Shown one piece after another: positions 16,061-52,951 of a stretch of 64,000 nucleotides of DNA. The position numbers and the translations under genes are program-made. Positions within the stretch are counted from its first letter, which is position 1, and each line of letters begins with the position of its first letter. This DNA is from Hyaloraphidium curvatum. Its lineage: Eukaryota; Monoblepharomycota; Hyaloraphidiomycetes; Hyaloraphidiales; Hyaloraphidiaceae. The stretch is taken from assembly GCA_025558095.1 (NCBI GenBank), contig JAIVFI010000002.1:186001-250000 (forward strand), in the 5' to 3' direction. Below the pieces are notes generated by a model, which saw only the letters and a program-made list of their open reading frames with translations, was not told the DNA's origin and ran no database searches.

Positions 16061-17609
16061 TCACACGTCTCGTACGCTACTAGTCAGCCTCTCCATCCCT
16101 GGCCGCCCAGTCTCCACCTCAGCAGCTGGATCGGAGTCACCCACCAGCTCCTCGACCACCTCGGGCACCAGTCCCAGCCCTCCCTCGCTCATCACCACGC
16201 TGAAACCGCTCCCCTCCCTCTCGTGCGGCCCGGGTGAGCTCGATATGATCCAAGGGTCCAGCAGCGCCGCATCAGCCGAGGGCCGTGTGTGCGGATCCGG
16301 GTCCAAAAGCCGCGCCAGGAAGGCACGGGCCGCCGGCGAGACCTCCTGCGAGTCCGGGAAGGAGAAGTTGCCGTCGCAGATGCGAGAATAGAGGTCCAGA
16401 TAGGAAGTCGAGCTCTGGAACGGCGTGGATCCGTAAAGTAGCTCGTAGAGCAGGCATCCGAGCGACCATAGGTCGACTTTGGAATCGTACGGACGGCCTC
16501 TGACGATTTCGGGCGCTAGATACTGCACGAATACGAAGCGGAACGTCAGAGAAGGCAGACTGAGTGTCGGTGAAGGCACTCACGAAGGGGGTTCCCGCCA
16601 GAGTCTTCATGCTCGCTTCTCCCAAAGCCGGCGCTTGCGAGGAAGCGACCGAGGATTGCCCGTCATCAGCCAGATTGGCTCGGCGGAAGAGCCGTGTGAG
16701 GAGGTCGTGCTGCGCGTCCGGGACTGGGCACAATCCGGCGGCAGCGGAGCCAAAGTCCGCCAGGCAGATCGAGGAGATGTCCTCCGTCCGGCGGAGGAGC
16801 ACGTTGGTGGGTTTCAGGTCCCTGTGGACGATCCCCTTGGCGCGCAGGAAGGAGAGCGTCGAAAGCATGATCGTGGCCACCTGCAGAGCCTCGGCCTCGG
16901 ATATGCAGCCTCCGCGGCGGACCGCGTACGAGCGGAGGTCGCCGCCTCGGGCAAGGTCGCACACCACGTAAAGCTTGTCCCGCGTCTGGAAGGTCTCGAC
17001 GTGACCGACCACGTGAGGGTGCGCAATGGCCTGCATGGTGGTCGCGAGCCGCAGCTGGTCCGCCCTTGCTGCCGACCGGCGCAAGGACTTCAGGGCAAAG
17101 TGCTCCCCAGTCGACATGTCCAGCACTTCCTTGACGTGGCCCTCGGCGCCGGCGCCGAGCAATCGGATGTCCTTGAAATTTTTCCGCCGCATCCTTCCTT
17201 CGCGGAAGCGCTCGGCATCGCGGAAATCGGGTCGGCCGGCGGGCGCGGAAACCGGGCTGGCCGGCCCGTCCTTCGCCGCCGGCGGGGGCTCTAACGGGTC
17301 CGTCTGTCCGAGCTGCAGGCCCAGCAGCCTCAGCTGGCCTTCAGAGCCGCGGCGGACCGGGTCGCCGCGCCAAGGGGTCCAGCGAAACTCGACGGAGGCA
17401 GCCGAGTGACGGCGAGGCAGCTCGGCCCGCGGAGCGAGCGGGTCCGACACGGAGAGAGACGGCATGCTCGGCGGCGTCGGGGCCCGCATGAAGGCGGCCG
17501 CGGAGGGGAAGGGCTTCGGCGTCGACGGTGGCCGCAGAAGGTGCGCTGTCCCGGGCGCGAAGGCGGCGGCGGCGGCGCGGGCGAGTTCGTGGGAGTTCGG
17601 CGGCCTCAT
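16061..17609 (-). CDS. Serine/threonine protein kinase, CAMK-like
   Basis: Two exons joined over a 61-base intron (16523-16583) give 495 residues. An N-terminal region of about 145 residues is Pro/Ala/Ser-rich. The kinase domain then shows the glycine loop LGAGAEGHVKEV, ATP-binding Lys in HFALKSL, catalytic loop HRDLKPTN, metal-binding DFGSAA and the APE motif in TPF-YLAPEIV, created exactly by the splice. Lobe C motifs follow: DLWSLGCLLYELLYG and HTRPSADAALLDPWI. All catalytic residues are intact, so it should be active. An insert of roughly 40 residues lies in the activation segment between DFG and TPF. The best fit is a CAMK-like cytosolic kinase, but no regulatory domain allows a subfamily name. 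It is divergently transcribed from the wecC-like gene across an 860-base gap. Confidence 0.88.
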
Positions 17610-18470: not shown

Positions 18471-19733
18471 ATGATCCGAACGGTCTGCGTCGTCGGCCTG
18501 GGCTACGTCGGCCTCCCCACCGCGGCGCTGCTCGCCCGCGCCGGACTGCGCGTGCGCGGCGCGGACGTCTCGGCACGCGCCGTGGACGCCGTCAACGCGG
18601 GCACGTCGCACCTCGTCGAGCCGGGGCTGGCCGACGCGGTTTCTGCGGCCGTGGCGTCGGGCATGCTCGCTGCGACGCTCGAGCCGGCGGCGGCGGACGC
18701 GTTCGTCATCGCGGTGCCGACGCCACTCGACGCGGAAAAGAGGTCGGACATGCGGTACGTCAGGGCCGCCGCAGAATCGGTCGCCCGCGTGCTGGCAAAG
18801 GGGAACCTCGTCGTGCTCGAGTCGACGTCGCCGGTGGGGTCCACGGAGGCCCTGGCGGGCTGGGTGGCCGCGGCAAGGCCGGACCTCGCGCCCGGGGACG
18901 TGCTTTTCGCGTACTGCCCCGAGCGAATCCTCCCCGGACGGGCCCTGGAGGAGCTGGTATCGAACGCAAGGATCATCGGAGGCCTCACCCCGGAGGCCGG
19001 CGAGGCCGCTTTGGTGCTTTATCGGACCTTTGTGGAGGGCGAGTGCGCCCTCGCGACCGCGCGGACCGCGGAGCTCGTCAAGCTCGCGGAAAACAGCTAC
19101 CGGGACGTCAACATTGCGTTTGCCAACGAGCTGTCGCTCGTGGCGGACAAGCTCGGCGTGGATCCGTGGGAGGCGATCCGGCTGGCCAACCTACACCCGC
19201 GGGTCGACATCCTCAGCCCCGGCCCTGGCGTGGGGGGCCATTGCCTGCCGGTGGACCCGTGGTTCCTGGTGGAGAGCTGCCCGGATGAGGCCAGGCTCAT
19301 CCGAACCGCGAGGGAGGTCAACGACGCCAAGACGGAATGGGTGTTCGAGCAGGTCCGCGAGGCGGTTTTGCAGGTGCTCTCCTCGGACCCTTCCAGGAGC
19401 ATGTCCGGTGTCTCTGTCGCCGTGTTGGGCCTCGCGTACAAGGCGGATACGGACGACCTGCGCGTCAGCCCCGCCGTCGAGGTTGCGCTGAAAACTGCTG
19501 GCCTGGGCTGCCTGGTTTTGGCCGTCGAGCCCAACCTCACCGAGCTGCCTGGCAAGCTGGCGGGCTCCATGCGGCTCTGCTCCCTGCCGGATGCCGCCGC
19601 CGCCGACGTGCTTTGCGTGCTCACCAAGCACAGCAGCTTTGCCGGCGCCGACGGCCGGGAGCTCGTCGCGAAACATCCGCGGGTGATTGATCCCGTCGGC
19701 CTTCTTCGCTATAGCAAGACTGTTCGAAATTGA
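18471..19733 (+). CDS. wecC: UDP-N-acetyl-D-mannosaminuronate dehydrogenase (WecC type)
   Basis: Intronless 420-residue enzyme of the UDP-glucose/GDP-mannose dehydrogenase family. It would oxidise UDP-ManNAc twice with NAD+ to UDP-ManNAcA. The N-terminal Rossmann motif is VVGLGYVGLPTAA. Further signatures are IAVPTPL, LESTSPVGSTEAL, AYCPERILPG, AELVKLAENSYRDVNIAFAN and the active-site Cys near residue 258 in GPGVGGHCLPVDPW. The C-terminal domain has VAVLGLAYKADTDDLRVSPA. The ESTSPVGST, RDVNIAFANELS and GGHC-x-x-VDPWF patterns are those of WecC rather than UDP-glucose dehydrogenase, which has FLNASVGFGGSCF-like sequence. There is no signal peptide and no intron, unlike most neighbours. With the wecB-like gene 3.75 kb downstream on the same strand it completes the UDP-GlcNAc to UDP-ManNAcA route. 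This is a bacterial pathway, so horizontal acquisition is the likely origin. Confidence 0.92.
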   Translation: MIRTVCVVGLGYVGLPTAALLARAGLRVRGADVSARAVDAVNAGTSHLVEPGLADAVSAAVASGMLAATLEPAAADAFVIAVPTPLDAEKRSDMRYVRAAAESVARVLAKGNLVVLESTSPVGSTEALAGWVAAARPDLAPGDVLFAYCPERILPGRALEELVSNARIIGGLTPEAGEAALVLYRTFVEGECALATARTAELVKLAENSYRDVNIAFANELSLVADKLGVDPWEAIRLANLHPRVDILSPGPGVGGHCLPVDPWFLVESCPDEARLIRTAREVNDAKTEWVFEQVREAVLQVLSSDPSRSMSGVSVAVLGLAYKADTDDLRVSPAVEVALKTAGLGCLVLAVEPNLTELPGKLAGSMRLCSLPDAAAADVLCVLTKHSSFAGADGRELVAKHPRVIDPVGLLRYSKTVRN

Positions 19734-19783
19734 CAGTAGAAATCTGCGCGAGTCATTTACGTTGCGAACCGCCTCGTTATACA

Positions 19784-22783
19784 TTAGTTGCCCCGAATAG
19801 TAACGTTGGGCACAGAAAAGCCCGGTGCTTGAACTGTCCGGCCCGAGGACGTCGAGGTCGCATTCTGGGTCTTGGCAGGTGTGATAGTTCCGGACGGTGT
19901 GTTTTGCGAAAGGTGCTGCGTGCGGGGCCATGTTGCCGGCTCGCCGCTCGTCGCCTCGCATAGCTGGACGAGCTCGTCCGTTATCTCGGAAAATGGCGGA
20001 CGATCCAGCGGATCCTGAGCCCAGCACCGCTGGATGAGGTTCCACAAGGCTTCGAGCTCATCAGGGAGGTCCGTGGGTCGCGGAGGCCGCTGGCCAAGCC
20101 GCAGGCTCGCTTGAACGACTTCTCGATCGATTCCGGCAAACGCCTTCTGGCCGCCGCTGGCGATTTGGTAGCACACCATGGCAAAGGAAAACACATCCGC
20201 GGGTTTGTCGGCCCCACGGCGCGAGAGGACCTCGGGGGCAATGTATCCGGGCGTACCCGCAGTGCTTCCCCTTGAGTGGTCGGAGAACTTTTCCAACAGC
20301 CTCGCGAGGCCAAAGTCTGCGATCATGGCCCGGTCATCCACGAGTATGTTTGCCGGCTTGAGGTCGCGGTGAACAATGCCTTTGCCGTGGACCTCCTCCA
20401 TGCCCTCGGCGACCTCTCTGAGCCTCTTGAGACCCAGATCGATCCGCCACTCGACCGACCCCATGTACTTTTCGAGATCCCCGTGGCGGGCAATGTCCGA
20501 GACGAGCATCGGCGGGTCCACGCACACCCCAATGAGCTGCAATACACACCGGTGGCGGATGCCGTCCCACTGCCGCGCCTCGCGGAAGCACTCGGCCATG
20601 GCCTCCGCGGAAACCGGACCCAGGTTCAGCACCTTGACTGCCACGGGGCGCCGTCCACGCAGCATCCCCCGGTAGACGGAACCAAAACCGCCGCCCCCGA
20701 GGCGTTGGGAATAGTCGACAACGACCTCGGAGGCTTCCAGCAAAACGAGCTGGTTGATTTCCGCACCGGCGGGCGGATTCAGGTCGGGAGCCGGCGGTGT
20801 TCCTTTCGCGACAGCTCCGGTCGGCCACTCGGGTATCGCAACCAGCTCTCCTTGCTCGATCTTCTCGGGCTCCAGGTCCGTTGAACGAGCATTGTGCCTC
20901 CGGCACCGCCTCCAAGCCCAGAGAGCGCCCCCCGCTGCGAGCAGGCCGGCTGCAATGCAGCCAAGAATCAGGAAAGTCAGCGAGACTGGTCCGATTGCGT
21001 CCAACAAAGAGCTGCCGGATTGAGGTGTCGGCACCGCGAAGATTGTCGAGGTTGACGAAGCAGCCGCAAAGGAAGTACTATCCGGCCGGGAAAGTGCAGT
21101 CGAAGCAGTCAGTGTCAATGAGAGCGATCGTGCAAGCGTTGATGTCGCCGCCAGCAATGCGGAAGACGATAGCGTTCGCGAGCTCGTAGCTACGGACGAG
21201 CTCGCAGAGATGCTCGTAGATGATTGGAGGTTTGCCGGCAGAGGCTGCACCGGTTCGCCAAGCACATCGGCAGAGCCCGATGGAACAGGAAGCGACTCGG
21301 CCAAGGCTCGAGCGGGGATGTTCGGAGCCAGCAGGTCCTCGGGAATGTTCAATGCTCCCGTCTCGTTAGATCCGAATCCCCAGATCAGGCCGTCGGATGT
21401 GAGGGCCAGCACGTGGTTGGTTCCCGCCGCCACCTGCACGATGCCCGTCACCTGCGCATCGTCTGCCTTGAAGGGATGAGCACCCCAGAAGCGCAAGGTC
21501 CCGTTGGCAAGGTGGGCGATGGAGTAAGTGTCCCCACATACCACGTCATGCGTGACTCCGTCCAAGCCTCGAGGAATGTCCGTCTGTCCCACAGCATTGC
21601 TTCCCCAGGCCCTGACGCTCCCGTTGCGCAGCAAGGCAAGTGCGTGTCCGTTGCCGGCGCAGATCCGGCTGGCTGCGGCCCCGAAAAGGCGGCGGATGCC
21701 AGACACGACGACCGAGTCATTGCTGCTAGACCAAGCCACCACCTCTCCCGTGTCGAGGAGGGAGACGACAAAGTCTCTGCCCGAAGCGGTCTGGCGAACC
21801 CACTGTCGTGCGTATGCTGGTACGATTGGGAATGAGCCGGAAACGGGTAGCATCTTGGCATCCTCCTGCACGACAAAGACCGTGCCGGCCCCGACGTCGA
21901 TATGGCGGGACTTGGTCACGTTGAACCACGAAAGCCCTCCGGCACCCCACATGGCTACGTAGCCGCCCCAAAGCATCGCCGCGGCCACGTTGCCTCCCGC
22001 GGCAACCTGTGTCCCGTAAAATCCAGCCACACCGTCGGGCACCGTGCTCTGGCCGACGTTGTTCCGGCCCCACGCCTCGATGAGCCCGGTGGAACGGACC
22101 ACGAGCGAGAATCCGCGTCCGGCAGCAACCTGCCGCACGGGAAAGCTGCCCAAAACGATCCTCTCGACCTTGCAGACCCCTGCAGAAACGCCATGGTGAG
22201 GCCCATCTGTTCAACTGCGGTCCAAGCACCGGAACCTACCGCCCTCGCAGTAAGCCAGCGAACCCGTGCCCGTCTCGGGACACTTTCGGCCACAGGAGCC
22301 GCAGTTGTTGTAGTCCGTCTCGAGATCGAAGCAGCACCCCTCCGGGCTTTCCTTGGTGCCATCGCAGGTCTTCCCGCGGCAAACGACGTCCGTGCAGCCC
22401 GAGCATCGTGCGCGGCAGCACCAACCCCCCTCGCAGCAGTTCCATCCCTCCGGGTGAGCTTCTCCCGCCTCGCGGCAGTAGCTGTAGCCGGGCGGATAGC
22501 AGCGGCCATCCTCCATCATCGTCCCGCGGGCGCCGCACGAGTCCCCGACGGGCTCCTGCGCGAAAGCATGCCCGGGCACGTAGTATGCCACGGCGGGGGC
22601 AACCGAGCAGAGGAGCAGCGCCGCGACGAGTGCGGCCGTCGATGCACCGGCCCACCCTCGCCCCGGGCGCCCGACGGCCCCGGGTCCGTCCCGCCGTTCC
22701 GCTTTCGGTCGTCCGGAACGAGATTCGGCACAAGTTAGGCCTTTCTCGCCGCCTGGTTGGTTCACTATGTTCATGTTCGTCAT
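19784..22783 (-). CDS. Receptor-like kinase: Cys-rich and RCC1-like ectodomain, TM, TKL-type kinase
   Basis: Two exons (intron 22180-22239, 60 bases) encode 979 residues. Order: a hydrophobic leader (residues about 46-67, ending SVAPAVAYY); a Cys-rich module with about 20 Cys (CYPPGYSYC, CCEGGWCC, NNCGSCGRKC); and RCC1-like repeats of the pattern VAAG-x-x-F-x-L-V and AWG-x-N-x-x-GQ. A Ser/Thr-rich stalk, a membrane helix (LTFLILGCIAAGLLAAGGALWAW) followed by basic residues, and a cytosolic kinase complete it. The kinase has LGGGGFGSVYRG, VAVKVL, HRDLKPANIL, DFGLARLL and GTPGYIAPEV, so it should be active; its style is tyrosine-kinase-like, as in plant and amoebal receptor kinases. The splice restores CEGGVCKVERIVLGSF. 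ATG 22783 was chosen; ATG 22861 is possible. Ligand unknown; RCC1-like repeats form propellers that often bind proteins or glycans. Confidence 0.88.
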
Positions 22784-23117
22784 GGGCCGGGGCTGGTGCG
22801 CAGGGACACTTCGGCTTCGACGCGCACTGCCACTCGGTCGTGAGCAATGCCTCCGCCTCAAAGCCGTGCCGCCAATATGGTTTGGCTTTCGCAGTCATGG
22901 TCAGATGCGCCGATCAGACGAGAAATGAAAGAGTTACTCATGCTAGTGCCGGGGGATCGGCCCGTCTTGCTCCCGAACGCGCGGACCCTGGCCGGAAACT
23001 GATCAGAGCGACGTACATAAGCCATCAGGCTTTGTTGTCAAGCAGTGCCTTTCGCGCCGGATTACCGCCCTGCGTTGGCCTCCAGTTCAGCTTCGACCCA
23101 CTCCCTTGCCTTCCTTT

Positions 23118-23301
23118 CCATCCACCGCCTCACTCGGGATAGCGACAACGTCCAGGGCGGTTAGGAAGTCGGGCATCTCGTCAAAGGCTATGCGGCCCGA
23201 GAGGCGGCACCCATCCGCGATGAGCAGCTTCGCGGCGCGTAACGAGTAAGGCTCTCCAGCGCAGCGCCATCGCCGACGATCAGGAAGGCAAACTTGGACT
23301 C
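23118..23301 (-). pseudogene. Remnant of a GT4-type glycosyltransferase
   Basis: About 60 residues of recognisable family 4 glycosyltransferase sequence survive, split over two frames. The first part, read from about 23295, gives KFAFLIVGDGAALESL, the strand and loop before the donor site. The second, from about 23235, gives LSGRIAFDEMPDFLTALDVVAIPSEA, the typical G-x-hydrophobic, P-x-x-x-x-x-x-D-hydrophobic, PS pattern. A one-base shift near 23228-23243 separates them. Nothing recognisable lies before or after; the expected E-x-F-G/E-x-x-x-x-x-x-E motif after PSEA is gone. It sits in the promoter side of the wecB-like gene, on the other strand. It cannot be functional as a transferase and is best read as a relic. 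Confidence 0.6.
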
Positions 23302-23484
23302 GCATCTTTGCCAGCTTGCCGGACACCTAGATCAGCAGCTCCAGCCCTCGTATGCCTGCGAAACCGGAGCGTTGGGCTGCGGCTTGCGGGCAGGCAGATG
23401 CGCGGTCCCTCCTTTATCCCTTCGATTGGCGCCCTACATAAGGACAAGGACACCCTCCCCAGCAGCCAGCGCCGCCCTTGCGAC

Positions 23485-24675
23485 ATGTGCGGGGGCGCCG
23501 TCCACTCTGCTGCAGACGCCCCGCGTGTCGCCGGGCAGGCGGACGCGGCGCCGGGCGCGCCCCGCGTGCTCGTCGTCATCGGCACGCGGCCCGAGGCAAT
23601 CAAGCTCGCGCCCGTTGTCGACGCCCTCCGCGCCTCGCCGCTCGCGGTCGACGTGGTCGCCAGCGGGCAGCACACGGACCTGCTCGACGCCGCGCTGGCG
23701 CCGTTCGGCATTTGCCCCGACCACCGCCTGGCGCTGCCCGCCGCGCGCGACCTCTCGGACCTCACCGCAGGCATCCTGCTCGGCATGCGGTCCATCCTCG
23801 CCGCGAGACCCTACGCCTTTGTCGTCGTACAGGGCGACACGACCACCGCGCTGGCCGCGGGCCTTGCCGCGTTCTATGCCCGGATCCCGCTCGCGCACGT
23901 CGAGGGTGGCCTGCGCACCTCCACGCCGCACTCCCCCTTCCCCGAGGAAGCAAACCGCCGCATGGTGTCGCGCATGGCGGCCCTGCACTTCGTCCCCACC
24001 GAGAGCGGCCGCGCAAACCTCCTGGCCGAGGGCACCGATCCCTCGACCGTGCACATCACGGGCAACACCGCCGTGGATGCCTTCTCGCGGACACTTCCCC
24101 TCGTGCGCTCCCTCTCCAGCCAGTACTCTTCCCGCTTTCCCTTCCTGGACCCGGCAAAGCGGCTCGTCCTCGTCACCGGCCACCGCCGCGAGAACCACGG
24201 CGCCGGCCTGGAGGGCATCTGCACCGCTGCGCTCGCCCTGGCTTCCCGGGGCGACGTGCAGGTCGCCTTCACCCTGCACCCGAACCCGCACGTCCGCGGG
24301 CCCGCCGCGGCGATGCTCGCCGGCGCCCCCGACGTCCACACCTTGGAACCGCAGGACTACCGCTCCTTCGTCTACCTGATGTCGCGCTCCTCGCTCATCC
24401 TCACGGACTCGGGCGGGATCCAGGAGGAAGCGCCGCTGCTCGGCATCCCCGTGCTGGTGCTCCGCGAGGAGACGGAGCGGCACGAGGCAGTCGAGGGCGG
24501 CACCGCGAGGGTGGTGGGCACGGACGCTGGGCGGATCGCGGCCGAGGCGGGGAGGCTGCTGGACGATGCGGAGGCGTACGCGGTGGCGGCGAGGGTGCAC
24601 AGCCCGTTCGGAGACGGCAGGGCGGCGGGGAGGATCGCCGAGGTGCTCTGCGGGTACCTTGCAAAGGCCGCCTGA
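23485..24675 (+). CDS. wecB: UDP-N-acetylglucosamine 2-epimerase, non-hydrolysing (WecB type)
   Basis: Intronless 396-residue enzyme that interconverts UDP-GlcNAc and UDP-ManNAc. Signatures in order: VIGTRPEAIKLAPVVDAL, ASGQHTDLLD, VVQGDTTTALAAGLAAFY, HVEGGLRTS, FPEEANRRMVS, ITGNTAVDA, LVTGHRRENHG, FTLHPNPHV, LTDSGGIQEEAPLLG and REETERHEAV. The Asp of QGDT, the Glu of HVEGG, the Glu pair of PEEANR and the His of TGHRREN are the residues known to matter in bacterial WecB/MnaA. The start MCGGAVHS gives a 27-residue leader before the conserved fold; ATG 23308 would add a long low-complexity stretch. Eukaryotic GNE enzymes are hydrolysing and fused to a kinase; this is not that type. It lies on the same strand as the wecC-like gene but has its own upstream gap, so it is not an operon partner in the bacterial sense. 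Confidence 0.93.
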   Translation: MCGGAVHSAADAPRVAGQADAAPGAPRVLVVIGTRPEAIKLAPVVDALRASPLAVDVVASGQHTDLLDAALAPFGICPDHRLALPAARDLSDLTAGILLGMRSILAARPYAFVVVQGDTTTALAAGLAAFYARIPLAHVEGGLRTSTPHSPFPEEANRRMVSRMAALHFVPTESGRANLLAEGTDPSTVHITGNTAVDAFSRTLPLVRSLSSQYSSRFPFLDPAKRLVLVTGHRRENHGAGLEGICTAALALASRGDVQVAFTLHPNPHVRGPAAAMLAGAPDVHTLEPQDYRSFVYLMSRSSLILTDSGGIQEEAPLLGIPVLVLREETERHEAVEGGTARVVGTDAGRIAAEAGRLLDDAEAYAVAARVHSPFGDGRAAGRIAEVLCGYLAKAA

Positions 24676-26223: not shown

Positions 26224-28364
26224 TCACCCGTGCTCCAAGCGCCTCATGTCCACCCTCACGTACCCAAACTCCCACTTCCGTGGCAGCCCCCTGAACTCGT
26301 CCTTGTACATAGCGCACCCGGCGCTGGTGTCCAGATCTAGGGCAGGGAGCACCCCGTTGCCGGTACTTGGCCCCGAAATAATCCAGGGAAAGTCTTCTTC
26401 TGCTTGCGCAGCGGCGTCGACGTGCGAGGGGTGGGAGGAGAGGACAGCGGCAAGGTTGATGATCTTGTTGTCGAACGCGGCGTCTGCGAAGCAGGCGGCA
26501 TAGTTCAGGTGACGCAGCAGCACCTCCCAGCGACGAAAAACCCACAGCACCGCGGTCCCAGGATATCATTGAAAGGCCCGAAATCCTTCCCAGGCGGAAT
26601 CAGGTCGTTCCGGGGGGACGGTGCAAGCCACGGCGACCTTCCTCCCGCGCAGTAATCGCATTCGCTCTCCTGGTCTCTTGTGTAGTTGTTCCTTCTCATC
26701 GCCCTCGCCACGTCGCCGTGCCCGCGGATGCCGGCCTGCGCGGACGCGAGCAGCTTGGCGCGCGCGGTGGCGTCGGCGGAGTACTGCTGGTCCGCCGTCC
26801 TCTTGCCGAGGGTGTCGCGGGTCCACTCCCAGTTGCGCTCGATCCCGCACGCGGCGCGCATTGAAGGGTGGTGCGCCGTGTTCCAGCCACCCCACCAGCG
26901 GCGTGCGCGGATGGCCTCGGTGAGGTCCATCTGCATGCTCGGCGCAGGAGATGAGCTGGTTCCAAAGGCAGAACCCAAAGAGACGCTCGACCCACCCATA
27001 CGGTCCCGTTCGGCATCTCGTCCACGAGCGTCACCGTGCCTTTTGGGACCAGACCCTCCTTGGACCCCTTGTCCTGCCTCTGCACAACCCTCCTCTTCGC
27101 GAACCTGCCGTAGTCAACGACCAAGTACTCGTTCAGCCCCGTCCCGCTCCCCAAGCCCGCAGCATCGAACCACCGGACCCACTCCTCCCCGTTCCGTGCT
27201 ACCCTCGACGCGGCGGCGATTCGCAGGAAGGTCCACAGCCTTTCGGGGGTCGCCGTGCGGGCGCGGAAGGGCGCGTCAGAGAGACACAAAAGGGTGGTGC
27301 TGGTGACGGCAAGGAGTGACGGGTGAGAGACGGAAAAGTCGTCCGAGGAGAACACCAGGCCGGGGTAGCCCGAGAAGGTGATGGTAGCCGGAACGCCCCC
27401 GCGGCGGGCGAGGAAAGGGAAATGGTAGCGGGCAAACTTGCGGGTCATTTGGGTAAGCACGTCGTTGGCCTGCTCGGACGACCGCGACGCGGTGAGAGGA
27501 CAGCAAGCCGGGCCACTCGCGTCGCGAACCCACATTGTGGGAGACGAACAAGTCACTCCCGTCCTCGAGCGGCTTGACCATCATCGTGCAGTGGTCTCGA
27601 GGCGCTGTTCCTCTGGGGCGGCCCGATGAGCCCGAAAGCAATCCGATTGTCTTGTTGCACTGGATGGGATCCAGGATACAGTTGAGATGGTCACCGTCCG
27701 CGGCGAGGAGGTTGAGTCTGAGCACGTCATGCGCCGACAGCGGCCCTTCGCCCGCGGCTTCGTCGCGGCGGGCATTGTATCCGTCGCTCATCCCGTCGAT
27801 CTGCAGCAGCAGATATCGGACCTGCTCGAAAATCTTGTCCCGGAACGACCCTTTCCCCGAAGCGAGCCGATCCCGGGCGTCGGGGTCGCGCATCTCGCGC
27901 CGCATCCAGTCAAGGTTGGACGCGACGAAGGCCGCCTGTTCCGCGGGCAGCTCGTCCCCGGCGGCCGAATTGAGGTAGTGCATCCACAGGCGGGCGTGCG
28001 TTGCGGCGCCCTCGGCGTAGCCGGCGGCGTAGGCCTGCTCGTCGGGCTCTGCCTTTGGCGAAGTTTCGACGTTGAGGAACGACCATCCCACGAGGTCGAT
28101 CTCGTCCGCGTAGCCCGCGTAGGCGAGGGGCCTGAACCCCCGACTGTCCTTCCAAAGCGGCTCATCATGCCAGCGCACGTCCGCTCGCTTCGGCGGCGCC
28201 TCAAAGACCGCGAGTCGTTCGCGAGTTGCACCGCCGGCCGGCTTTGCGACAATAATCGCAACCGCACGGGACCGCGGGTCGCCGCGAGGCAGCGGGTGGA
28301 TAGGTGGCAATGCAGTCGCTGCGATTGGCAGCAGTAGCACGACGAGCCCAGCTAGCGCCCTCAT
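26224..28364 (-). CDS. Phospholipase B-like (PLBD/lamina ancestor) amidohydrolase
   Basis: Four exons (introns 27470-27533, 26931-26995, 26484-26545; 62-65 bases) encode 649 residues. A signal peptide (MRALAGLVVLLLPIAATALPP) starts the protein. Family landmarks are GYADEIDLVGWSFL, the processing and nucleophile region ending RDHCTMMVK (Cys expected as the N-terminal nucleophile after self-cleavage), VPATITFSGYPGLVFSSDDF, WNTAHHPSMRAACG and NYTRDQESECDYC. The C-terminal IISGPS and the LPRKWEFGYV-like ending follow. PLBD proteins are secreted or lysosomal Ntn hydrolases that deacylate phospholipids or related amides. A vacuolar or secreted role is inferred. It is divergent from the mL53 gene, with 103 bases between the two ATGs. 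The third splice donor is the least certain. Confidence 0.87.
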
Positions 28365-28467
28365 CCCGCCGAGATGGAGCCAGCGTGCGGAGCGCGGCAA
28401 GGGATCGCGATCGCGCAAACCGTAAACAGTATCGACGCGCGGCGCGGCCGGCGCCTTAGGGCACGCA

Positions 28468-35936: not shown

Positions 35937-38031
35937 TCACAAGCTCCGGGAGTCCCCGTTCAACAGCGACCCCACCGACGGCGTCGGGCTCCCGACCAAG
36001 CTCCCTGCCTGCGCCTTGGGGCTCACCGCGTTCCCCCAGAGGTCTTTGGGGATCCCCCCCAGCAGCACCGACTCGAGCCCGTCGCGGAAGAGCCGGTCCC
36101 AGAAAAAGGGCGCCCAGCCCTCGGCGTTCTCGACCTCCCGGAAGGGCGGGTCGACGGCGTCCAGCGGAGCCGCCACGCGGCGCTCGATGCGCACGCCGTA
36201 CCCTTCGGCGTGCTCGTGGAACAGATCCGCAAACCTGCGGACTGGCGACCCGGAATCAGAGATCGAGGCGAGGCCACAGGCAAGACGACAACCCACTCTC
36301 CATCCCGTACTTCCTCGCCAGAGCATCCAGGCACGAACCGACCGTCTGCACGCCCGCCTCGTACTCGCACGCCCTCTGCTCCCGCGCGGCCCTCTGCTCC
36401 GGCGTCTCTCCGATCTGCTCCCCCCGCTCCGCGACAACGGCCGCAACGAGCTCCACGCCGACCTTGAACGCCGGCGGCGCGAGCATAAAGTGGGACCACC
36501 TGAAGGCCCTGTCGGCGCGCACGAGGCCGCGGACGACGCCGCAGAAGGTGAGGCAGCGCATGCGTGCGGCGGAGCGGAAGCCGCCGACGAGGAGGCGGTC
36601 GATCGAGTACGAGTCCTGGGCAAGGAGCATCTGCACGGCCGTGTGCGCGATGGCCTGCTGGGGGAAAAACTCCTCCCAGTTGGCCAGGATCGGGCCGGGA
36701 TCGCCGGCGGCGAGGGCGTCGGCTACCTTGCGCGGGAGGACCTTGAGCGTGGATTCGCCGAGCACGGAGAGCATGGCGACGGCCTGCTTGCGGAGGATTC
36801 CAGACGGTCCCGGGTCCGAGCGCACCGTCGTCATGAGAATGTGCCGGGAAAAATTGCTCATCAGGAAGAGCGCGAGCACTGAGCCGCCGCCGCCAAAGGG
36901 CACGGCCGCAAAATCCTGGAAAGCCTTGACGATGCTCTCGATGGTCGGCTCGCCCAGGTGCACGACCGGCACGCTGTGCGTGGGGGAGGCTGCCCAGCGC
37001 ACCTGGAGGGCCGAGAATGCGCGCACGGGGTCCGGATCGTCAAAGTAGGCCTCCGAGCACGGGAGGGCGAGGGCATGGTTGTGGAAATAGCAGCCGAAGG
37101 TGGGCTTGCCCGTTTGCACGGACACGGCGAGGTCGTACGACACGAGAAAGATGCGGAGCCGCGTGACGAGCTCGCGAAAGAGCCACTCCGTGACGGTGCG
37201 CGGGGAAGTCACGGCGATGAGGGCGCGCAGCTGCTCCGCCGCCGTCGCGGCGCGCTTGACCAGGGCGTAGCAGAGTCCGGGGACGCCGGCGGGCGAGTAG
37301 ACGTCGAGGAGGATGGTGAAGGCCTGCGCCGATTCGAGGTCGTCCTCGGCCCTGGCCAGCAGCTCCCTGCGGGCGGATTCCGCCCACTCGTAGGAGGCCT
37401 GGGCACGGTAGGCGCTCGAGGCGTGCGGGAGCACCCTCGCGCCGCACGCGGCCAGGGCGAGGGCCAGCATCAGCGGCGGGCGGCGGTATATCGGAGACGA
37501 TCCGCGCAGGGCGGTCTCAAAGGTGGGCCGGTGGATGATGGGCCACATCGGATAGACCTCGGAAAAATAAGCGTCCACGGCCAGGAAGAGCTCCGGCGAG
37601 AGGCCGAGCTCGGAGCCGAAGCCCGGAGGGAGGGACGGCGCGAAGAGGGTGCGGCTCGTGGGGTCCGGCGACCCGGCGGCGGAGGACGCCGGGCGGCCCG
37701 GGGAGAACAGTGACGCGGGCGCAGAGGCCGGCGAGCCGTGCGCGGCGCCGAGCGCCGACGCCGCCGAGGCGCCCGAGGCGGAGGAAGCGGCGGACACCGC
37801 GGTCGCCGACGCCTGGCGGGCAAAGTCGCCGGAGCCCTCGGCGGCGGCGGCGGCCGCTTTCCACGATTCGGGGATCCGCGACCACGACGGCACGCGGTGC
37901 AAGCCCGGCCGCCCGTCGCCCGCCTTCGGCCCGGCGGACCGCGACCGCCCGAGCGGCACCTTGCCCGCGCCGCCCGCCTCCGCCGCGCCGTCCGAGCCGG
38001 TCCGGGGGACCGCCTCGGCGCCCGACGCCAT
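35937..38031 (-). CDS. Fungal-specific transcription factor domain protein without zinc cluster
   Basis: Two exons over a 58-base intron (36235-36292) encode 678 residues. After an Ala/Ser/Pro-rich N-terminal 145 residues comes FLAVDAYFSEVYPMWPIIHRPTFE, the hallmark opening of the fungal-specific transcription factor domain. Then follow PLMLALALAACGARV, the helical body and a C-terminal region joined as GMESG-FADLFHEH. No Cys pairs exist in the N terminus, so the Zn(II)2Cys6 DNA-binding cluster normally found there is absent. Either an upstream exon was missed or this is a cluster-less regulator, of which fungi have many. The second exon ends shortly after FWDRLFRDGLESVL, and a similar segment persists as a fragment at 38770-39000. 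Nuclear regulator inferred. Confidence 0.8.
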
Positions 38032-38769
38032 GTTTCGGTCCGGTCGGCGATGCTTTGGTTCGGTGTGTCAAGGTGGATTTGGAATCGTTCCGGGCGGCGG
38101 TGGTGGTTCCAGATTCTGTTCAGGGGAAGGGGGAGGGTCCCACGACGTCATAAACTCGTGACCGGTACCTTCTCTCCTTCGCATCGGGGAGCCTTTTCGA
38201 GCATCGGGTAATCGTACCGCGTAGCTCCGATCCATGTGGCCGCTTCGGGCACACGCGGCGGACGACCCCCGTTGAGGACCCCTGCGGATCCCCATTCCCG
38301 CCGGGCTTCTCACAGGGGTTCCTCCGACACTCGATCGCGAAGCTGAATTCATGTCCGAAGAGACGATTAGTCAAGGCACTTTCCATAGCTCAAATTCTCT
38401 GAACCGGGACGCGTCGTGGTTGAGGGGCTTAAGTTGGCGGAAGAACGGAGAAGGCAGGTGAAAGCCTGCGACCGACTTGCCGCCGGAGGAGGATCACTCG
38501 TGCAAAAACGAGCTAGGGAGGACATCGTCGGTCATCTGACGAAAGAGCCGTAACCTTTGCAAACCCATTCTGTCTCACAGGAGCATCCCGCGCGCAACCG
38601 TTCTTTCCTCGGCAAGATCCATCGGAAGATGGAGGACGGGACTCTAGTTTGAGGAAAGCGAAGCGATCAGACTCCGATGCACTCCGCACCCCGCCCAACA
38701 CGCAAACTGGTCCGTGCATCAACACACGCTAACCGCAGGCCCGCACCGCTCCAACCGTCTCGCTCAGAG
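38032..38769. other. Intergenic, no gene seen
   Basis: About 740 bases upstream of the cluster-less regulator. No frame here shows domain-like composition and no Cys-rich zinc-cluster exon was found on the minus strand, although that was looked for. The likely content is the regulator promoter. Confidence 0.4.
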
Positions 38770-43843: not shown

Positions 43844-43945
43844 GGTGCCGCGGGGGCAGGGCGGGCAGGGCTCAAGGCGGTTAGGGATTAGGGATCGTTG
43901 GGGATAGTACCGCAAACACACCTGCCTGGAAAGGGTTAGGTGAAA

Positions 43946-45160
43946 ATGGTGGGCGTCCGTCACCTCGCCGCGGGCGCCGTCGGCGCCGCCCTCGTCCTCG
44001 GCGCGGCGCTGCGGAGCGGCGCCCCGGGCCGCGGCGCCCGGCTGCCGGCGGCGGCGGGCCCCCGCGCGGACTTTGTGCCCGGGGCCGGCCGCCGCGCCCA
44101 CGCCGCGCTGTGCCTCGCGGTGAAGGACCAGCCGGCAGACGTCCTGGAGTGGGTGGCGTGGCACCACCATCTGGCGCGCGTGGACCGCTTGTACGTGGTC
44201 GAGAACGTGAACGACTGGCCGCCGGAGCGGCACGCTGCCCCCCCAACGCGCACGGAGCGCCTCCTCGCCGGCTACATCGGCGCCGGCGTCGTCGAGCACC
44301 TCCCGTTCGTGTTCTCCGAGGCCACGCGCGGCCGCTACCCGCACCACCAGGCCTTTGCCTACTCGGCGTGCTTCGACCTCTTCGGCCTGCGGCACGAGTG
44401 GATCGTCGCCATCGACGCCGACGAGTTCGTCGAGTACCCCGGGATCGGCAACGGCACCTCGCTCTCCGACATCCTCCGGGCGCACGAGCGGCCCGGGGTC
44501 GGCGAGCTCCTCCTCAACTGGCGCATGTTCGGCAACCCCAACGGCACCGTGCGGACCCGGCCCCTCGCGGGCACCGTGGCCACCTACACGGGGTGCATGC
44601 CCGCGTCCTACGGCGACAACCGCCACCACAAGACCGCCGCGCGCCCGCGCGCGCTGCGGGCTCTGAACATACACGCGGGAGAGCTCCGCGAGGGCTGGCG
44701 GGCCGTGGACGAGCGCGGGGTCGCGCTGCCCGTGACCGACCTGCGCAACGGGACGGCCACCGTCGCGAGGGTGTGGGTGAACCACTACGTCAGCAGGAGC
44801 GCGGAGGAGAACGCGGAGAAGACCGCCAGGGGCTCGGGGGATCTGAACACAAAGACGGCCAAGTTCTTCAAGCTCATGGACCGCGATGCGACCGAAACGT
44901 GCGCATCGGCACGGGATGCTTGGTTGGCCAGCGGGGTGTGGGACGGGGCGGCCGAGTGGGCCGAGGGGATCGGGAACGGAGGTGTGGCCCCGAGAAGCGG
45001 CCCCGGACCAGCGATGCGCGGGCTTCAAAAGATGAGCGGAGAGGCTCGCAACGACGATCCGCCAGGGGCAGTCTCTCTCCTCGGTCTCGATGGCAGCTGC
45101 AGGCGTGGCGAGGCCGCAGTTCTCGCTGCCGCGGACAGTTCATCGAGCTCTTCCGCATGA
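43946..45160 (+). CDS. Golgi-type glycosyltransferase, DUF23/GT92-like (GT2 superfamily)
   Basis: Intronless 404-residue type II enzyme. A short basic tip and membrane anchor (VRHLAAGAVGAALVLGAAL) precede the catalytic domain. ALCLAVKDQPADVLEWVAWHHHLARVDRLYVVENVND is the classic opening of the DUF23/GT92 and Glyco_tranf_2_4 families, in which strand 1 is followed by K-x-E/Q and EW-x-x-WH. The DXD motif is WIVAIDADEFVEYP. Later blocks are LLLNWRMFGNPNGTVRTRP, HHKTAARPRAL and VWVNHYVSRSAEENAEKTARG. These enzymes add hexose (often galactose) to glycoproteins or glycolipids in the Golgi. Donor and acceptor are unknown. The C-terminal 90 residues are low in complexity and the true end may be earlier. 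The ATG at 43946 was used; the frame opens with a GTG two codons before. Confidence 0.85.
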   Translation: MVGVRHLAAGAVGAALVLGAALRSGAPGRGARLPAAAGPRADFVPGAGRRAHAALCLAVKDQPADVLEWVAWHHHLARVDRLYVVENVNDWPPERHAAPPTRTERLLAGYIGAGVVEHLPFVFSEATRGRYPHHQAFAYSACFDLFGLRHEWIVAIDADEFVEYPGIGNGTSLSDILRAHERPGVGELLLNWRMFGNPNGTVRTRPLAGTVATYTGCMPASYGDNRHHKTAARPRALRALNIHAGELREGWRAVDERGVALPVTDLRNGTATVARVWVNHYVSRSAEENAEKTARGSGDLNTKTAKFFKLMDRDATETCASARDAWLASGVWDGAAEWAEGIGNGGVAPRSGPGPAMRGLQKMSGEARNDDPPGAVSLLGLDGSCRRGEAAVLAAADSSSSSSA

Positions 45161-47931: not shown

Positions 47932-48751
47932 TCATTGCTCCGTCCCTTTCCGGGGGCCCGAGGCCGGTGGGGCGGTGCGGTGCGGGGGGGCGGAAGTGTT
48001 CCGCAAAAGGACGACGCGGACCGATCGGTCCATGCTGCCATTCGGATCCATGATGCCGATCCGCGCCAGATTGGGATGCGGGCGACGCGGAAAGAGGGGA
48101 GGGAGATTTCGGTGAGGGCGATGCGGCCCATGTCGCGCTTGGTGCGTGCGGCGGGGGGCATGAATTCCTGCTGCGTCGCGAGGAGGCGGAGGGTGCGGTC
48201 CGGCGGCGGGGACAGCGCGATGGGCCGGGGGTCCTCGAGGCCCTGAATGTCGCGTTGCCCGGATCGGGGCGCAGCGACTTCGGCACGCGGAGTTCGACGA
48301 CGGGCACGGCGGGGTCGATGCCCAGGTCTGCGTCCAGCCGCGCGAGGGTGGTCCGCGAGACGAAGCGGTCCTTGTAGATGTAGCGCGACGAGGCCACGTC
48401 GATGCGGTAGCTGACGTGCCGCGTGAGCACCCACAGCGCGCCGTCGGAGCCGCGGAGCAGGGTCGGCGTCGACGGGGCGAAGGTCACCTCGCCGCCGGCA
48501 AAGGCCGCGTGGCCGTCGGGGAACAGCCGCCGCGCGCGGACCATCAGCGGGCGCAGAGCGGGGGCGTGGCGCCAGTCCGAGGGCAGCGCCAGCACGCCGG
48601 CGGCGAAGGAGGCGTTGTCCGCCGCGACAAAGGGCGGCGGCCTGCGCGCGCACGCGGGGGACGGCGCCGCCACCCGGCCGAGCGCAAGCAGCGCGACGAG
48701 GAGCGGCAGGAGCACAAGTGCGACGGGGCGCCGGAGTCCCGCAAAGCCCAT
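47932..48751 (-). pseudogene. Decayed type II secretory-pathway protein with EDPR motif
   Basis: A membrane anchor (LRRPVALVLLPLLVALLALG) begins a protein that reads well to VVELRVPKSLRPDPGNATF. The text then continues in a second frame as QGLEDPRPIALS, EFMPPAARTKRDMGR and IALTEISLPSFRVARI, and in a third as RIGIMDPNGSMDRSVR to a stop at 47932. Two single-base shifts (near 48260 and near 48070) are needed, and no intron explains them. The GLEDPR block resembles the E-D-P-R signature of five-bladed glycoside hydrolases and phosphorylases, but the remaining sequence is too short to classify. Its position between Golgi-type transferases suggests it once belonged to the same glycan set. Starts divergently from the GT64-type gene, 105 bases away. 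Confidence 0.5.
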
Positions 48752-48856
48752 TCGGCGCCGTCTGGGACCGTCCCCGATTGGGGGGGCCCGGCGGGGCAAT
48801 CCCTTGCTTGGCGGCGGATACTCCTAGGGGCCCGCAGCACAATTCGGACCCGCGGG

Positions 48857-50893
48857 ATGCGCGGCCTGCGGTGGCTCTGCTCGCGCGGCCTGCCGCTCGG
48901 CGGACTCGTGGTGATCGCGGCCGGCCTCGCTCGGCGGGGCGGCGGGCCGGCGGGGGCGGCGTCGGCCGCGGGGCGGGCATTCGTCACCGCCGCGTGCGGG
49001 GATGCCCCGCCGGACGCCGTCGCCGCGCTGGTCGAGTCCCTCCGACCGTGCGGACTGCTGGTGGTCGTCATCGCCGACCGTGCGGACGCCGCCAACGTGT
49101 CGCGTGCGTGTCCGGACTGCAGCGTCGCGGCGGGGGACGGCGTGGACGAGAGGCGGGGCTGCGTCGATGCGTTCGCCCGAGCGTGGGCGCTACCCTTTTC
49201 CGAAGTCGCATACTTTGCACCGAATGCGCTGGCGGTGAAGGTGACGGGGCCCGACGGAGCCTGCGGCCTGCTGGGCGACGCAGCCCTCGCCCGCCTGCCC
49301 GTCAATGCTGTGCTCGCCGCGGGCGGGCCGCTGGACGGCGATGCGCCGGACCCGTCGGTCGTGGTGCTGCGGCCACACGTCCGGACTGCTGCGGCCATCA
49401 AGGAATGGGCGGACGCAACCCCGCACGCGTCCCCCGCCGAGCTGCTCGCCGCCTTCTTCTCCCCCGGCGACCAATCGCCTAACAGCCAGTCGCCGAAGCC
49501 TGGCAAATGGTTCCGCCTGCCCCGAACGTCCAACGTGCAGACATCGATGGCCCGCCTGCCCGGCTATCCCGCGCTGGCGGACCGCGCGGCAGTGCTCGTC
49601 TTCGACGGCCCCGCACGGCCATGGGACTTCTTCCGGACCGCCTCCCCGCGCTGGCGCGACTCGTTCGACCCCGCAGCCTGGTGGGCGTGGCAGCGGGCCG
49701 CCAACGCCGCCCGCGCGAGGGCCGGGCTCCTCGGGGACGGCCAGGCGGCGCGCTGGGCTGGCAGGCAGGCGAGCTGCAACGCGCTATTCGGGCAGACCGG
49801 CGGCGCCGACCCCGGCAACGGTGCAGCAGCCACAATGGGGCTCCTTCCGTGGCCGGTCTCCCGTACCCTGCTCCCCCCGCCTCCCGGCTCACGCGGCGGC
49901 AAGCTCGCCGTGCTCCTCGCCACCTTTGATCGCGCCCTGGACACGGTCGCCCTCCTCCTGCGGCACTACGCTGCCAGCCCCGCCGTCTCGGCCGTCTACC
50001 TCCTCTGGCTGAACCCATCCACCGCCGGCCGCATCGCCGCCCTCCCCCCCGGCTGGCCGCATCGCACCCCCACACCTCCCCCCGGCATGGCCCCCATTAC
50101 CGTCGTCCCCGCCCCCCGGGACTCCCTCAACGCGCGCTTCCACCCCCTCCCCTCCCTCCCCTCCTCCTCCATCCTCGTCGCCGACGACGACATGCTCCCC
50201 TCCCACGCGGCCCTGGACCTCCTCCGCCGCGTGCACCTCCTCGACCCGGACCGCCCGGCGTCGTTCCACGCGCGGGGCCACGCGAGGGGCCACGACGGGT
50301 ACCCGAAGTACCTTGCCGGGGCGCACGAGATGCGCGGGTACTCGCTCGCCCTGACCAAGCTCATGGCCGCCCCCGCGGACCTGCTCTTTGCCTACTCGTG
50401 CATGCTCCCCGACGCCGTGCACGCCTTGGTGGACCGCGAGGCGAACTGCGAGGACGTCGCGGCGGGGTTCCTCGCATCGGGCACCTCGGGCAAGCCGCCC
50501 CTCCTGGCGTGGCCGAGGGACGTGGCGGTGCGGTGCGCGCCGCTCGCGCCCGGGGAGGACCCGGGCACGCCGGAGGGGAAGAAGGCCTACTTCGACGCCG
50601 GCTACCTGGACGGGGGCTACTTCTTCCGCGGCGCCGACGGGCCCGCGACGAGGCTGGGGTGCAGGGCCGAGGCGGCGGTGCACGATTTCGGGAGCAGGGG
50701 AGGAGGGCTGTCGTCCAAGCCGGGTCACTTTGCCGCGCGGGCGAGGTGCCTGGCGGAGCTGGAGGGGGTGTTTGGCGACGCGCTGGTCACCGCACGGGAG
50801 ACAGTGGGAGAGTTCAGGGGGCTGCCACCCGTCGGAGGCGGGGGAATGGAGGACCTGGCCGAGGCGAGGGAGCTCGTGCGCGGGCCCGGCTGA
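48857..50893 (+). CDS. Golgi glycosyltransferase with GT64 (exostosin-like) C-terminal domain, copy 1
   Basis: Intronless 678-residue type II protein with an N-terminal anchor (LPLGGLVVIAAGLA). The first half, from FVTAACGDAPPDAVAALV to FDGPARPWDFF, looks like a degenerate GT8-type domain (strand 1 and the H/FxGP-x-x-PW end are visible, but a clear DXD is not). The second half is GT64-type: LAVLLATFDRALDTVALLLRHY, VVPAPRDSLNARFHPLP, the DXD site SILVADDDMLPSHAALDLL, ALTKLMAAPADLLFAYSCML and NCEDVAAGFLAS. GT64 enzymes transfer N-acetylhexosamine or mannose to glycans. Copy 2 lies tail to tail, 69 bases away; the two agree throughout but differ in length in the C-terminal third. Donor unknown. 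Confidence 0.85.
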   Translation: MRGLRWLCSRGLPLGGLVVIAAGLARRGGGPAGAASAAGRAFVTAACGDAPPDAVAALVESLRPCGLLVVVIADRADAANVSRACPDCSVAAGDGVDERRGCVDAFARAWALPFSEVAYFAPNALAVKVTGPDGACGLLGDAALARLPVNAVLAAGGPLDGDAPDPSVVVLRPHVRTAAAIKEWADATPHASPAELLAAFFSPGDQSPNSQSPKPGKWFRLPRTSNVQTSMARLPGYPALADRAAVLVFDGPARPWDFFRTASPRWRDSFDPAAWWAWQRAANAARARAGLLGDGQAARWAGRQASCNALFGQTGGADPGNGAAATMGLLPWPVSRTLLPPPPGSRGGKLAVLLATFDRALDTVALLLRHYAASPAVSAVYLLWLNPSTAGRIAALPPGWPHRTPTPPPGMAPITVVPAPRDSLNARFHPLPSLPSSSILVADDDMLPSHAALDLLRRVHLLDPDRPASFHARGHARGHDGYPKYLAGAHEMRGYSLALTKLMAAPADLLFAYSCMLPDAVHALVDREANCEDVAAGFLASGTSGKPPLLAWPRDVAVRCAPLAPGEDPGTPEGKKAYFDAGYLDGGYFFRGADGPATRLGCRAEAAVHDFGSRGGGLSSKPGHFAARARCLAELEGVFGDALVTARETVGEFRGLPPVGGGGMEDLAEARELVRGPG

Positions 50894-50962: not shown

Positions 50963-52858
50963 CTACTGCACCAGCAGCCCGCTCGCCCCCATCTTGCCCA
51001 CACCCCCCGCCAGCATCGGCCCCCCCGCCCAGTCCCCCGCGACCCCCTTGCCCGTCCGCAGCACGTTCCCAAACACCCCCTCCAGCTCCGCCAGGCATCC
51101 CTCCCTGACCTCCATGTGGCTCTTCTTCCCTGACACCCCTTTCGGCCCGCCGTGGTCCTCGATCGCGGGGCGCGGGCCGCACCGCAATTCGGTGCCGTCC
51201 GGGGCGCGCATGAGCACGGGGAGGTAGCTGTCCCCCTCGTCGCGGGTCATCGGCCCCGCATGCGCGGGCGCGCACCGCCACGCACCGGGCGGATCGGGCG
51301 GCCACACGGCGAGCGGGGCGCGGCCCGCCGCGCCCGAGAGCAGGAAGTTGGCGGCCAGGTCCTCGCAGTTCTTTGCCCGCTCCGCCACGGCGCGCGCGGG
51401 AAAGGGGAGCGCGCACGAGTGGAGGAAGAGGAGGTCCGAGGGCGCCGCCATGGCCTTTGTGAGCACCATCGAGTAGCCCTCCCCGAGATCGGCCCGCGTC
51501 CACTTGTACGACCACCCGCCCTCCTTCCCGCGCACGGCATGGCGGGGGTAGTACCCCGCCAGCCTGTCTCCATCCGCGCGCCAAGCGCGGAGCAGCGCGC
51601 TCACTGCCCCGTGGGAGAGGAGCATGTCGTCGTCGAGCACGAGGATGCCGCGGGGAAGTGAGGGCAGGGGGAGGAAGCGGTCGTTGAACGAGTCCCTCGA
51701 CGGGGGGACCACGTGCACGGATGCCTGCTTTCGGCCGTTGCGGGGGTGGAGGTGGAACGGCCAATGGGGGGGTAGCGACCGTGCGGCGTCCTGCGTGCGG
51801 TTGTCCAGCCACAGGAGGTAAACGGATTCGGCGTCGGGGTGCAGGGCGTAATGCCGCACGAGGAGCGCGACTTCCTCCAGGGGGCGGGAGAAGGTGCTGA
51901 TGAGGAAGGCGGCGCGGGCTTCGGCGTCGTCCGAGTCGGGGGAGGGGGGCACGAAGGAGGCGGGAAACGGCCAGCTCGGCGGGTCGGTGCCCGCCGAGGG
52001 GGTTGGGAGGCCGAAGAGCGCGTCGCACCGCGGCCGCACGGCGTCCCAATCCGCCGCTTCCTCGCGAGAGACCAGGCCCGCGGCCAGCCGCGAGGCGTGC
52101 AGGGTGCGCCGCCAGAGCCACCACGCAGCGGGGTCGAACGACTCCCGCCAGCGCAGCTTTTCCCGGCGCGGCCCGGCGCGGAAGAAGTCCCAGGGCCGGG
52201 AGGGCCCGTCAAAGTGCAGCACCGCCGCGCGGGGGGCGAGAGATTTGTAGGCGGGCAGGCGGGCCAGGGACGCGCGCACGTGGAAGCGCTGCGGCAGGCG
52301 GAGCCAGGTGCCCGGCGCCGACGCGTTGCCCGCGGCAAAGTACCCGGCCAGGAGGTCCGCGAAAGGGGCCGAGGGGGTTTCCGCTGCCCGCCGCACCAGC
52401 GCGTCGCGGACTGCCGGATCGGGGCGCAAAACAAGCACGCCGGGGTCGATCGCATCGCCGTCGCCCGGCAGCGAGGTCGCGAAAAGCGCGTTCCGCGGGG
52501 CATTATTGCCAAAATCCAACAGCTCGCAGGCGGCGGGCCGTGCCAACGCGCCGGCGGGAAGCAGCGCGACGGAGCGGTGTGCGAGCCCCCACGCGTCCAG
52601 CGCCGCGCGCCCGCAGTCCGCGCCCCCTTCCGGCCGCAGCATGACGAGCGGGGCATTACACGAGCGCAGGGAGTGTTGCAGCGCCGCCAGCGGGTCGTCG
52701 TCGCCCGGCCCGCAACGCACCGCCGCGAACGCGGAACGGCCTGCTGGAGCGCCCCGCGGCGACCCGGACGCGTCGGGACTCGCCAGCCGCAGCGCCCAGA
52801 ACGCGCAGAAAAAAAGGACCAGTGCGGACGCGGCCAAGCGCGACCGCGTGCCCGCCAT
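50963..52858 (-). CDS. Golgi glycosyltransferase with GT64 (exostosin-like) C-terminal domain, copy 2
   Basis: Intronless 631-residue paralogue of copy 1, in inverted orientation. Anchor: LAASALVLFFCAFWALRLA. The shared first half includes ASLARLPAYKSLAPRAAVLHF and GPSRPWDFFRAGP, followed by RWRESFDPAAWWLW, nearly the same words as copy 1. GT64 motifs: AFLISTFSRPLEEVALLVRHY, VVPPSRDSFNDRFLPLP, DXD in ILVLDDDMLLSHGAVSALL, MVLTKAMAAPSDLLFLHSCAL and NCEDLAANFLLSG. The copy is clearly functional by motif content. Start ATG 52858 sits directly before the anchor; an ATG 48 bases upstream is possible. Its start is 93 bases from the stop of the GT25-like gene in the same direction. The pair arose by inverted duplication and has since diverged considerably. 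Confidence 0.85.
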   Translation of the reverse strand: MAGTRSRLAASALVLFFCAFWALRLASPDASGSPRGAPAGRSAFAAVRCGPGDDDPLAALQHSLRSCNAPLVMLRPEGGADCGRAALDAWGLAHRSVALLPAGALARPAACELLDFGNNAPRNALFATSLPGDGDAIDPGVLVLRPDPAVRDALVRRAAETPSAPFADLLAGYFAAGNASAPGTWLRLPQRFHVRASLARLPAYKSLAPRAAVLHFDGPSRPWDFFRAGPRREKLRWRESFDPAAWWLWRRTLHASRLAAGLVSREEAADWDAVRPRCDALFGLPTPSAGTDPPSWPFPASFVPPSPDSDDAEARAAFLISTFSRPLEEVALLVRHYALHPDAESVYLLWLDNRTQDAARSLPPHWPFHLHPRNGRKQASVHVVPPSRDSFNDRFLPLPSLPRGILVLDDDMLLSHGAVSALLRAWRADGDRLAGYYPRHAVRGKEGGWSYKWTRADLGEGYSMVLTKAMAAPSDLLFLHSCALPFPARAVAERAKNCEDLAANFLLSGAAGRAPLAVWPPDPPGAWRCAPAHAGPMTRDEGDSYLPVLMRAPDGTELRCGPRPAIEDHGGPKGVSGKKSHMEVREGCLAELEGVFGNVLRTGKGVAGDWAGGPMLAGGVGKMGASGLLVQ

Positions 52859-52951
52859 CCGCGCAGGAGCGGGACTACGGTTCGCCCAGCCCGCCCAGAG
52901 TGCCAAGGGATCAAGATTCGTCGCCGATCAGCAGCCTCGCGTACAGCGAAT

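Follow-up and report, generated by a model that had tools for sequence, protein, structure and literature searches.

The wecC and wecB genes

The window, that is, the whole 64,000-nucleotide stretch of Hyaloraphidium curvatum DNA that was analysed (C2:186001-250000), is part of a 1.3-Mb contig in an assembly of 31.9 Mb in 55 contigs. At 204-211 kb of this contig lie two intronless genes of the same orientation, which encode homologues of WecC, the UDP-N-acetyl-D-mannosamine 6-dehydrogenase, and WecB, the non-hydrolysing UDP-GlcNAc 2-epimerase (Table 1). The wecC gene is uninterrupted and occurs in a single copy in the genome. The reading frame of wecB is open from 23224 to 24675, and its likely START is the ATG at 23485, which gives the 396-aa protein, or the ATG at 23398.

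Table 1. Features of the wecC-wecB locus and related genes of the same contig. Positions are those of the window unless prefixed with C2.
Feature	Position	Strand	Basis or remark
Host protein kinase gene, upstream of wecC	16061..17609	(-)	intron 16583-16523
wecC homologue, UDP-N-acetyl-D-mannosamine 6-dehydrogenase, 420 aa, intronless	18471..19733	(+)	Pfam domains, equivalog HMM, residues
Host gene between wecC and wecB	19784..22861	(-)	Cys-rich N-terminus, RCC1 repeats, transmembrane segment, protein kinase
wecB homologue, non-hydrolysing UDP-GlcNAc 2-epimerase, 396 aa, intronless	23485..24675	(+)	PF02350, TIGR00236, residues
Neighbouring host ORF, 341 aa	24747..25772	(-)	without Pfam family match
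Fungal-specific transcription factor domain (PF04082, Fungal_trans)	36259..38067	(-)	domain match
GT2/GT92-like glycosyltransferase ORF	43940..45157	(+)	weak, below both Pfam cut-offs; possible nucleotide-sugar user
GT64 (exostosin-like) glycosyltransferase ORF	48164..50890	(+)	family match
GT64 ORF with glycogenin-like (GT8) N-terminal part	50966..52927	(-)	family match
NeuB with SAF domain	C2:343564-344637		single copy in genome
CMP-sugar synthetase	C2:345762-346469		single copy, about 1.1 kb from NeuB
Fused WecB, copy 1	C2:523064-525400 (L002:499-2835)	(-) in L002	WecB domain and DUF6492-like part
Nucleotide-sugar transporter near fused WecB	C2:528973-530133
Fused WecB, copy 2	C2:554854-557232 (L003:1201-3579)	(+) in L003	WecB domain and DUF6492-like part

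The WecC protein contains all three UDPG/GDP-mannose dehydrogenase domains (PF03721/PF00984/PF03720) and passes the cut-off of the NCBIfam equivalog model NF008286 (523 bits, cut-off 459). An analysis of 229 sequences defined nine residues that distinguish the UDP-ManNAc dehydrogenases (PMC4794789). Positions were assigned by alignment to Cap5O (3ojl) and to bacterial sequences, and all nine group-specific residues were found in the window protein (E117, R152, P155, R211, H242, V254, H257, V261, and F265), along with R244 and the catalytic C258. The two arginines R152 and R211, the double mutation of which (R152F/R211L) abolished UDP-ManNAc oxidation by Cap5O (PMC4794789), are thus both present. 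The eukaryotic UDP-glucose dehydrogenase shares the superfamily and the three-domain layout with the window WecC but differs from it in the UDP-ManNAc-specific residues. The identification of the protein as a UDP-ManNAc dehydrogenase is well supported by its sequence, and NAD+-dependent oxidation is the predicted activity.

WecB is a member of the Epimerase_2 family without a kinase domain (331 bits to PF02350), and it reached 383 bits with the equivalog model TIGR00236, the cut-off of which is 210. Residues D95, E117, E131, and H213, which we take to be the catalytic residues of E. coli WecB, were all found conserved by alignment to 1f6d. Its assignment as a non-hydrolysing epimerase is likewise well supported, and the corresponding activity is predicted. 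The original prediction had described both genes as intact and intronless, with the active-site Cys of WecC and the Asp, the Glu pair, and the His of WecB retained, and this description proved to be accurate.

Genomic setting and arrangement of the pair

The host gene located between wecC and wecB has a GT-AG intron of 60 nt (22239-22180), and only 51 bp separate its 3′-end from the STOP of wecC. This receptor-like gene combines Cys-rich, RCC1, transmembrane, and kinase parts, a combination that is, to our knowledge, rare in fungi. The kinase gene upstream of wecC carries a 61-nt GT-AG intron, the splicing of which joins TLAGTPF to YLAPEIV. The contig can be regarded as fungal because it encodes a PF04082 transcription factor domain, and several split, multi-exon matches to chitin synthase also indicate the fungal nature of the genome. 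The earlier statement that the surrounding genes are spliced and fungal was thereby borne out, and the pair is located inside the host genome, interleaved with spliced host genes. A phospholipase B-like gene (PF04916) was also seen in the window at 27276-28580(-); this family is associated with amoebozoans and animals rather than with Dikarya.

The gap between wecC and wecB is 3.75 kb in a 31.9-Mb genome, and the probability that a second gene placed at random would fall within 5 kb of the first is ~3e-4, as estimated from the genome size. Here wecC precedes wecB, whereas wecB comes first in the sampled bacterial operons. The reversed order and the intervening host gene imply that the arrival of the pair was accompanied or followed by one or more rearrangements and by the insertion of a host gene between the two. 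Thus, of the claim that the two genes have been kept as a pair within 6.2 kb, the short distance stands, but the contiguity does not. The genes do not form an operon block, and each could be regulated separately.

Origin and constraint

The best matches of both proteins were found in wecB-wecC operons of Burkholderiales: plasmid p2 of Caballeronia insecticola showed 57% identity for WecC and 55% for WecB, and both Alcaligenes and Rhodoferax showed 58% and 52%, respectively, 58% being the highest identity among the bacteria found. In single-gene and concatenated trees, which included bacterial and viral sequences only, the fungal pair stood apart from the sampled Pseudomonadota on a long branch, and the donor was not fixed. 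All Pseudomonadota of the alignment share a stretch of 7 residues that is absent from the window WecC and also from an Actinomycetota WecC, therefore a donor outside Pseudomonadota is possible. As the sampling covered bacterial and viral sequences, the transfer may also have occurred via another eukaryote. A viral origin was rejected: the scan of IMG/VR revealed no WecB, and the WecC relatives in viral contigs were mostly 25-42% identical, with one at 51%.

The two enzyme families and their catalytic and specificity residues are common to the fungal pair and the bacterial WecB-WecC (RffE-RffD)/MnaA-Cap5O module. In contrast to the latter, the fungal genes are nuclear, stand in reversed order with a spliced host gene between them, and have no adjoining bacterial polymer assembly genes. 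The best reading of these sequence data is that both genes derive from an old bacterial transfer and are resident in the fungal nuclear genome.

WecC retains 106 of the 112 columns that are invariant in 80 bacterial sequences and WecB 88 of the 107 that are invariant in 69, while about 30% of the variable columns are identical in the window proteins. The codon usage of wecC correlates with that of host genes at 0.96 and that of wecB at 0.875, compared with 0.54-0.72 for three proteobacterial wecC genes; however, the codon fit alone is no proof of long residence because a high-GC actinobacterial wecC (L034) also reaches 0.95. Column retention and codon usage together fit long residence under purifying selection, which does not in itself prove expression.

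Further sugar-activating and glycan-related genes

The wecB gene of the window is not the only one in the genome. A different WecB, which is part of a fusion protein, is encoded by two nearly identical copies that are inverted relative to each other and share 98.8% DNA identity over 2.6 kb. The WecB domain of the fused protein (349 bits to TIGR00236) is 38% identical to the window WecB, and its codon usage is unusual (GC3 0.55). The C-terminal part of 326 residues gave a sub-threshold match to DUF6492, and a hydrophobic N-terminal segment looks like a membrane anchor. The structure predicted without alignment had a mean pLDDT of 33. If the protein were indeed a Golgi epimerase-transferase fusion, it would be unusual.

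The NeuB and CMP-sugar synthetase genes are located in the 293-354 kb region of the contig, 83-143 kb beyond wecB, which is densely packed with intronless ORFs having glycan-related matches, including GT14, GT61-like, and GT92-like glycosyltransferases, polysaccharide pyruvyl transferase-like proteins, and a nucleotide-sugar transporter. The region resembles an extensive cluster for glycan assembly. Many of its ORFs begin with an N-terminal hydrophobic segment. Among the PDB chains, NeuA and animal CMP-Neu5Ac synthetase are the nearest to the CMP-sugar synthetase, while its nearest NCBIfam model is PseF, with a score below the cut-off. Together with NeuB it represents a predicted nonulosonic (sialic-type) acid pathway in a fungal contig.

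GT64 has four matches in the whole genome. The two GT64 ORFs of the window lie close to each other in opposite orientation, and with the GT8-like N-terminal part in one of them they are reminiscent of exostosins. Elsewhere, a UDP-sugar dehydrogenase-like domain is fused to an SDR epimerase/dehydratase (L006:1306-3444 and L096:4546-5253, at C12:403 kb), apparently in two exons, and is possibly a bifunctional nucleotide-sugar enzyme.

Proposed pathway and possible fate of UDP-ManNAcA

A UDP-ManNAcA pathway is predicted because both window proteins keep the substrate-specific and catalytic residues. In the cytosol, WecB would convert UDP-GlcNAc, the precursor of chitin, to UDP-ManNAc, which WecC would oxidise at C6 with two NAD+ to UDP-ManNAcA. 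A nucleotide-sugar transporter might then carry UDP-ManNAcA into the Golgi, where type II membrane glycosyltransferases could build ManNAcA into secreted acidic glycans. The GT64, GT14, GT61-like, GT92-like, transporter, and pyruvyl-transferase-like genes of the same contig provide a supporting context for these steps. We consider it probable that wecC and wecB are functional, long-resident bacterial acquisitions serving this purpose. Some observations do not favour it: no ManNAcA transferase was identifiable in the genome, the two genes are not adjacent and their regulation could be separate, the codon usage of wecB fits the host less well, and the NeuB/CMP-sugar synthetase locus is another possible sink for ManNAc. 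The proposal of an acquired bacterial UDP-ManNAcA pathway in a fungal genome was thus upheld as regards the location of the genes in a fungal nuclear contig and the catalytic and specificity residues, but it was incomplete, as the genome also contains the NeuB/CMP-sugar synthetase locus and the second WecB.

The enterobacterial common antigen pathway has WecB and WecC in common with the fungal locus but differs in its ManNAcA transferase: GT26/WecG (PF03808) was not found in the H. curvatum genome by a search that gave matches in 7 control genomes, although an intron-split copy could escape it. The enterobacterial common antigen pathway was rejected on this basis; its transferase is apparently not used, therefore any use of the sugar would require a transferase of eukaryotic type or an unrelated one. 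PF00953 (WecA/ALG7) had one match in the genome, interrupted by stops as expected of an intron-bearing gene, and was read as a eukaryotic ALG7-type enzyme.

Alternative explanations

The bacterial similarity of both proteins and the lack of introns in their genes could also be explained by bacterial contamination or an assembly join. This is hardly credible, since spliced host genes are found both upstream of wecC and between the two genes, the intervening one ending within a few dozen bp of the wecC STOP, and since the PF04082 domain and the split chitin synthases mark the sequence as fungal; we rejected contamination primarily because of the interposed gene. Moreover, the contig is large, the order and spacing of the genes are unlike those of bacterial operons, further intronless genes exist on this contig, and no bacterium found exceeded the 58% identity given above. 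The genes could also be relicts, unexpressed and intact merely by chance, a suggestion in line with their long branches. The strong retention of invariant columns despite large divergence and the absence of stops make this very improbable. Nearly as improbable is that WecC oxidises another sugar, converting UDP-GlcNAc to UDP-GlcNAcA, or acting on UDP-Glc. Substrate labels in the dehydrogenase superfamily can be wrong (PMC4794789); nevertheless, every group-specific residue matches the UDP-ManNAc dehydrogenases, the score with the TviB model is 122 bits against a cut-off of 592, wecB lies close to wecC, and the genome already has a separate, spliced UDP-Glc dehydrogenase of its own (L004).

The main rival of the UDP-ManNAcA reading is nonulosonic acid supply, in which the epimerase would mainly feed the NeuB route: UDP-ManNAc would be hydrolysed to ManNAc, condensed by NeuB with PEP, and the product activated with CMP, leaving WecC on a side branch. 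The presence of NeuB with its SAF domain and the CMP-sugar synthetase, both single-copy and on the same contig, and the similarity of the latter to NeuA and the animal CMP-Neu5Ac synthetase, are in its favour. However, wecB matches the non-hydrolysing model and not that of the hydrolysing NeuC (72 bits, cut-off 236), and it is located 3.75 kb from wecC versus about 133 kb from neuB. The substrate of NeuB is itself uncertain, as it scores below the cut-off of the Neu5Ac synthase model (327 vs. 400) and also below that of the pseudaminate synthase model, and the fused WecB could fill this role instead. We therefore regard nonulosonic acid supply as unlikely and retain synthesis of UDP-ManNAcA for secreted acidic glycans as the preferred explanation.

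Significance

UDP-ManNAc dehydrogenases have been described as bacterial and archaeal enzymes (PMC4794789), and a 2019 review on the charged glycans of non-vertebrates lists no eukaryotic anionic monosaccharides other than hexuronic and sialic acids (PMC6994554). According to PMC11014887, it is largely unknown where the mannosamine of microbial extracellular polymers comes from. The open-access literature contained nothing relevant on UDP-ManNAcA in fungi or other eukaryotes, although automatic annotations may exist in other fungi. The enzyme families are already known; what appears to be new, as far as this literature goes, is the intact bacterial wecB/wecC pair within a fungal nuclear chromosome.

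The bacterial-type genes on one contig, the nucleotide-sugar transporters, and the type II membrane glycosyltransferases suggest a broader picture, which we put forward only tentatively and hold to be rather doubtful, of a bacterial-capsule-like acidic coat assembled in the Golgi from UDP-ManNAcA, CMP-nonulosonic acid, and possibly pyruvylated sugars. If the predicted pathway operates, a two-step bacterial nucleotide-sugar pathway has been kept together in a fungus, in which an acidic polymer would be made from the precursor of chitin, and ManNAcA would extend the charged monosaccharides of eukaryotes by a new class. The fungus may thus build acidic surface glycans that have so far not been reported in fungi.
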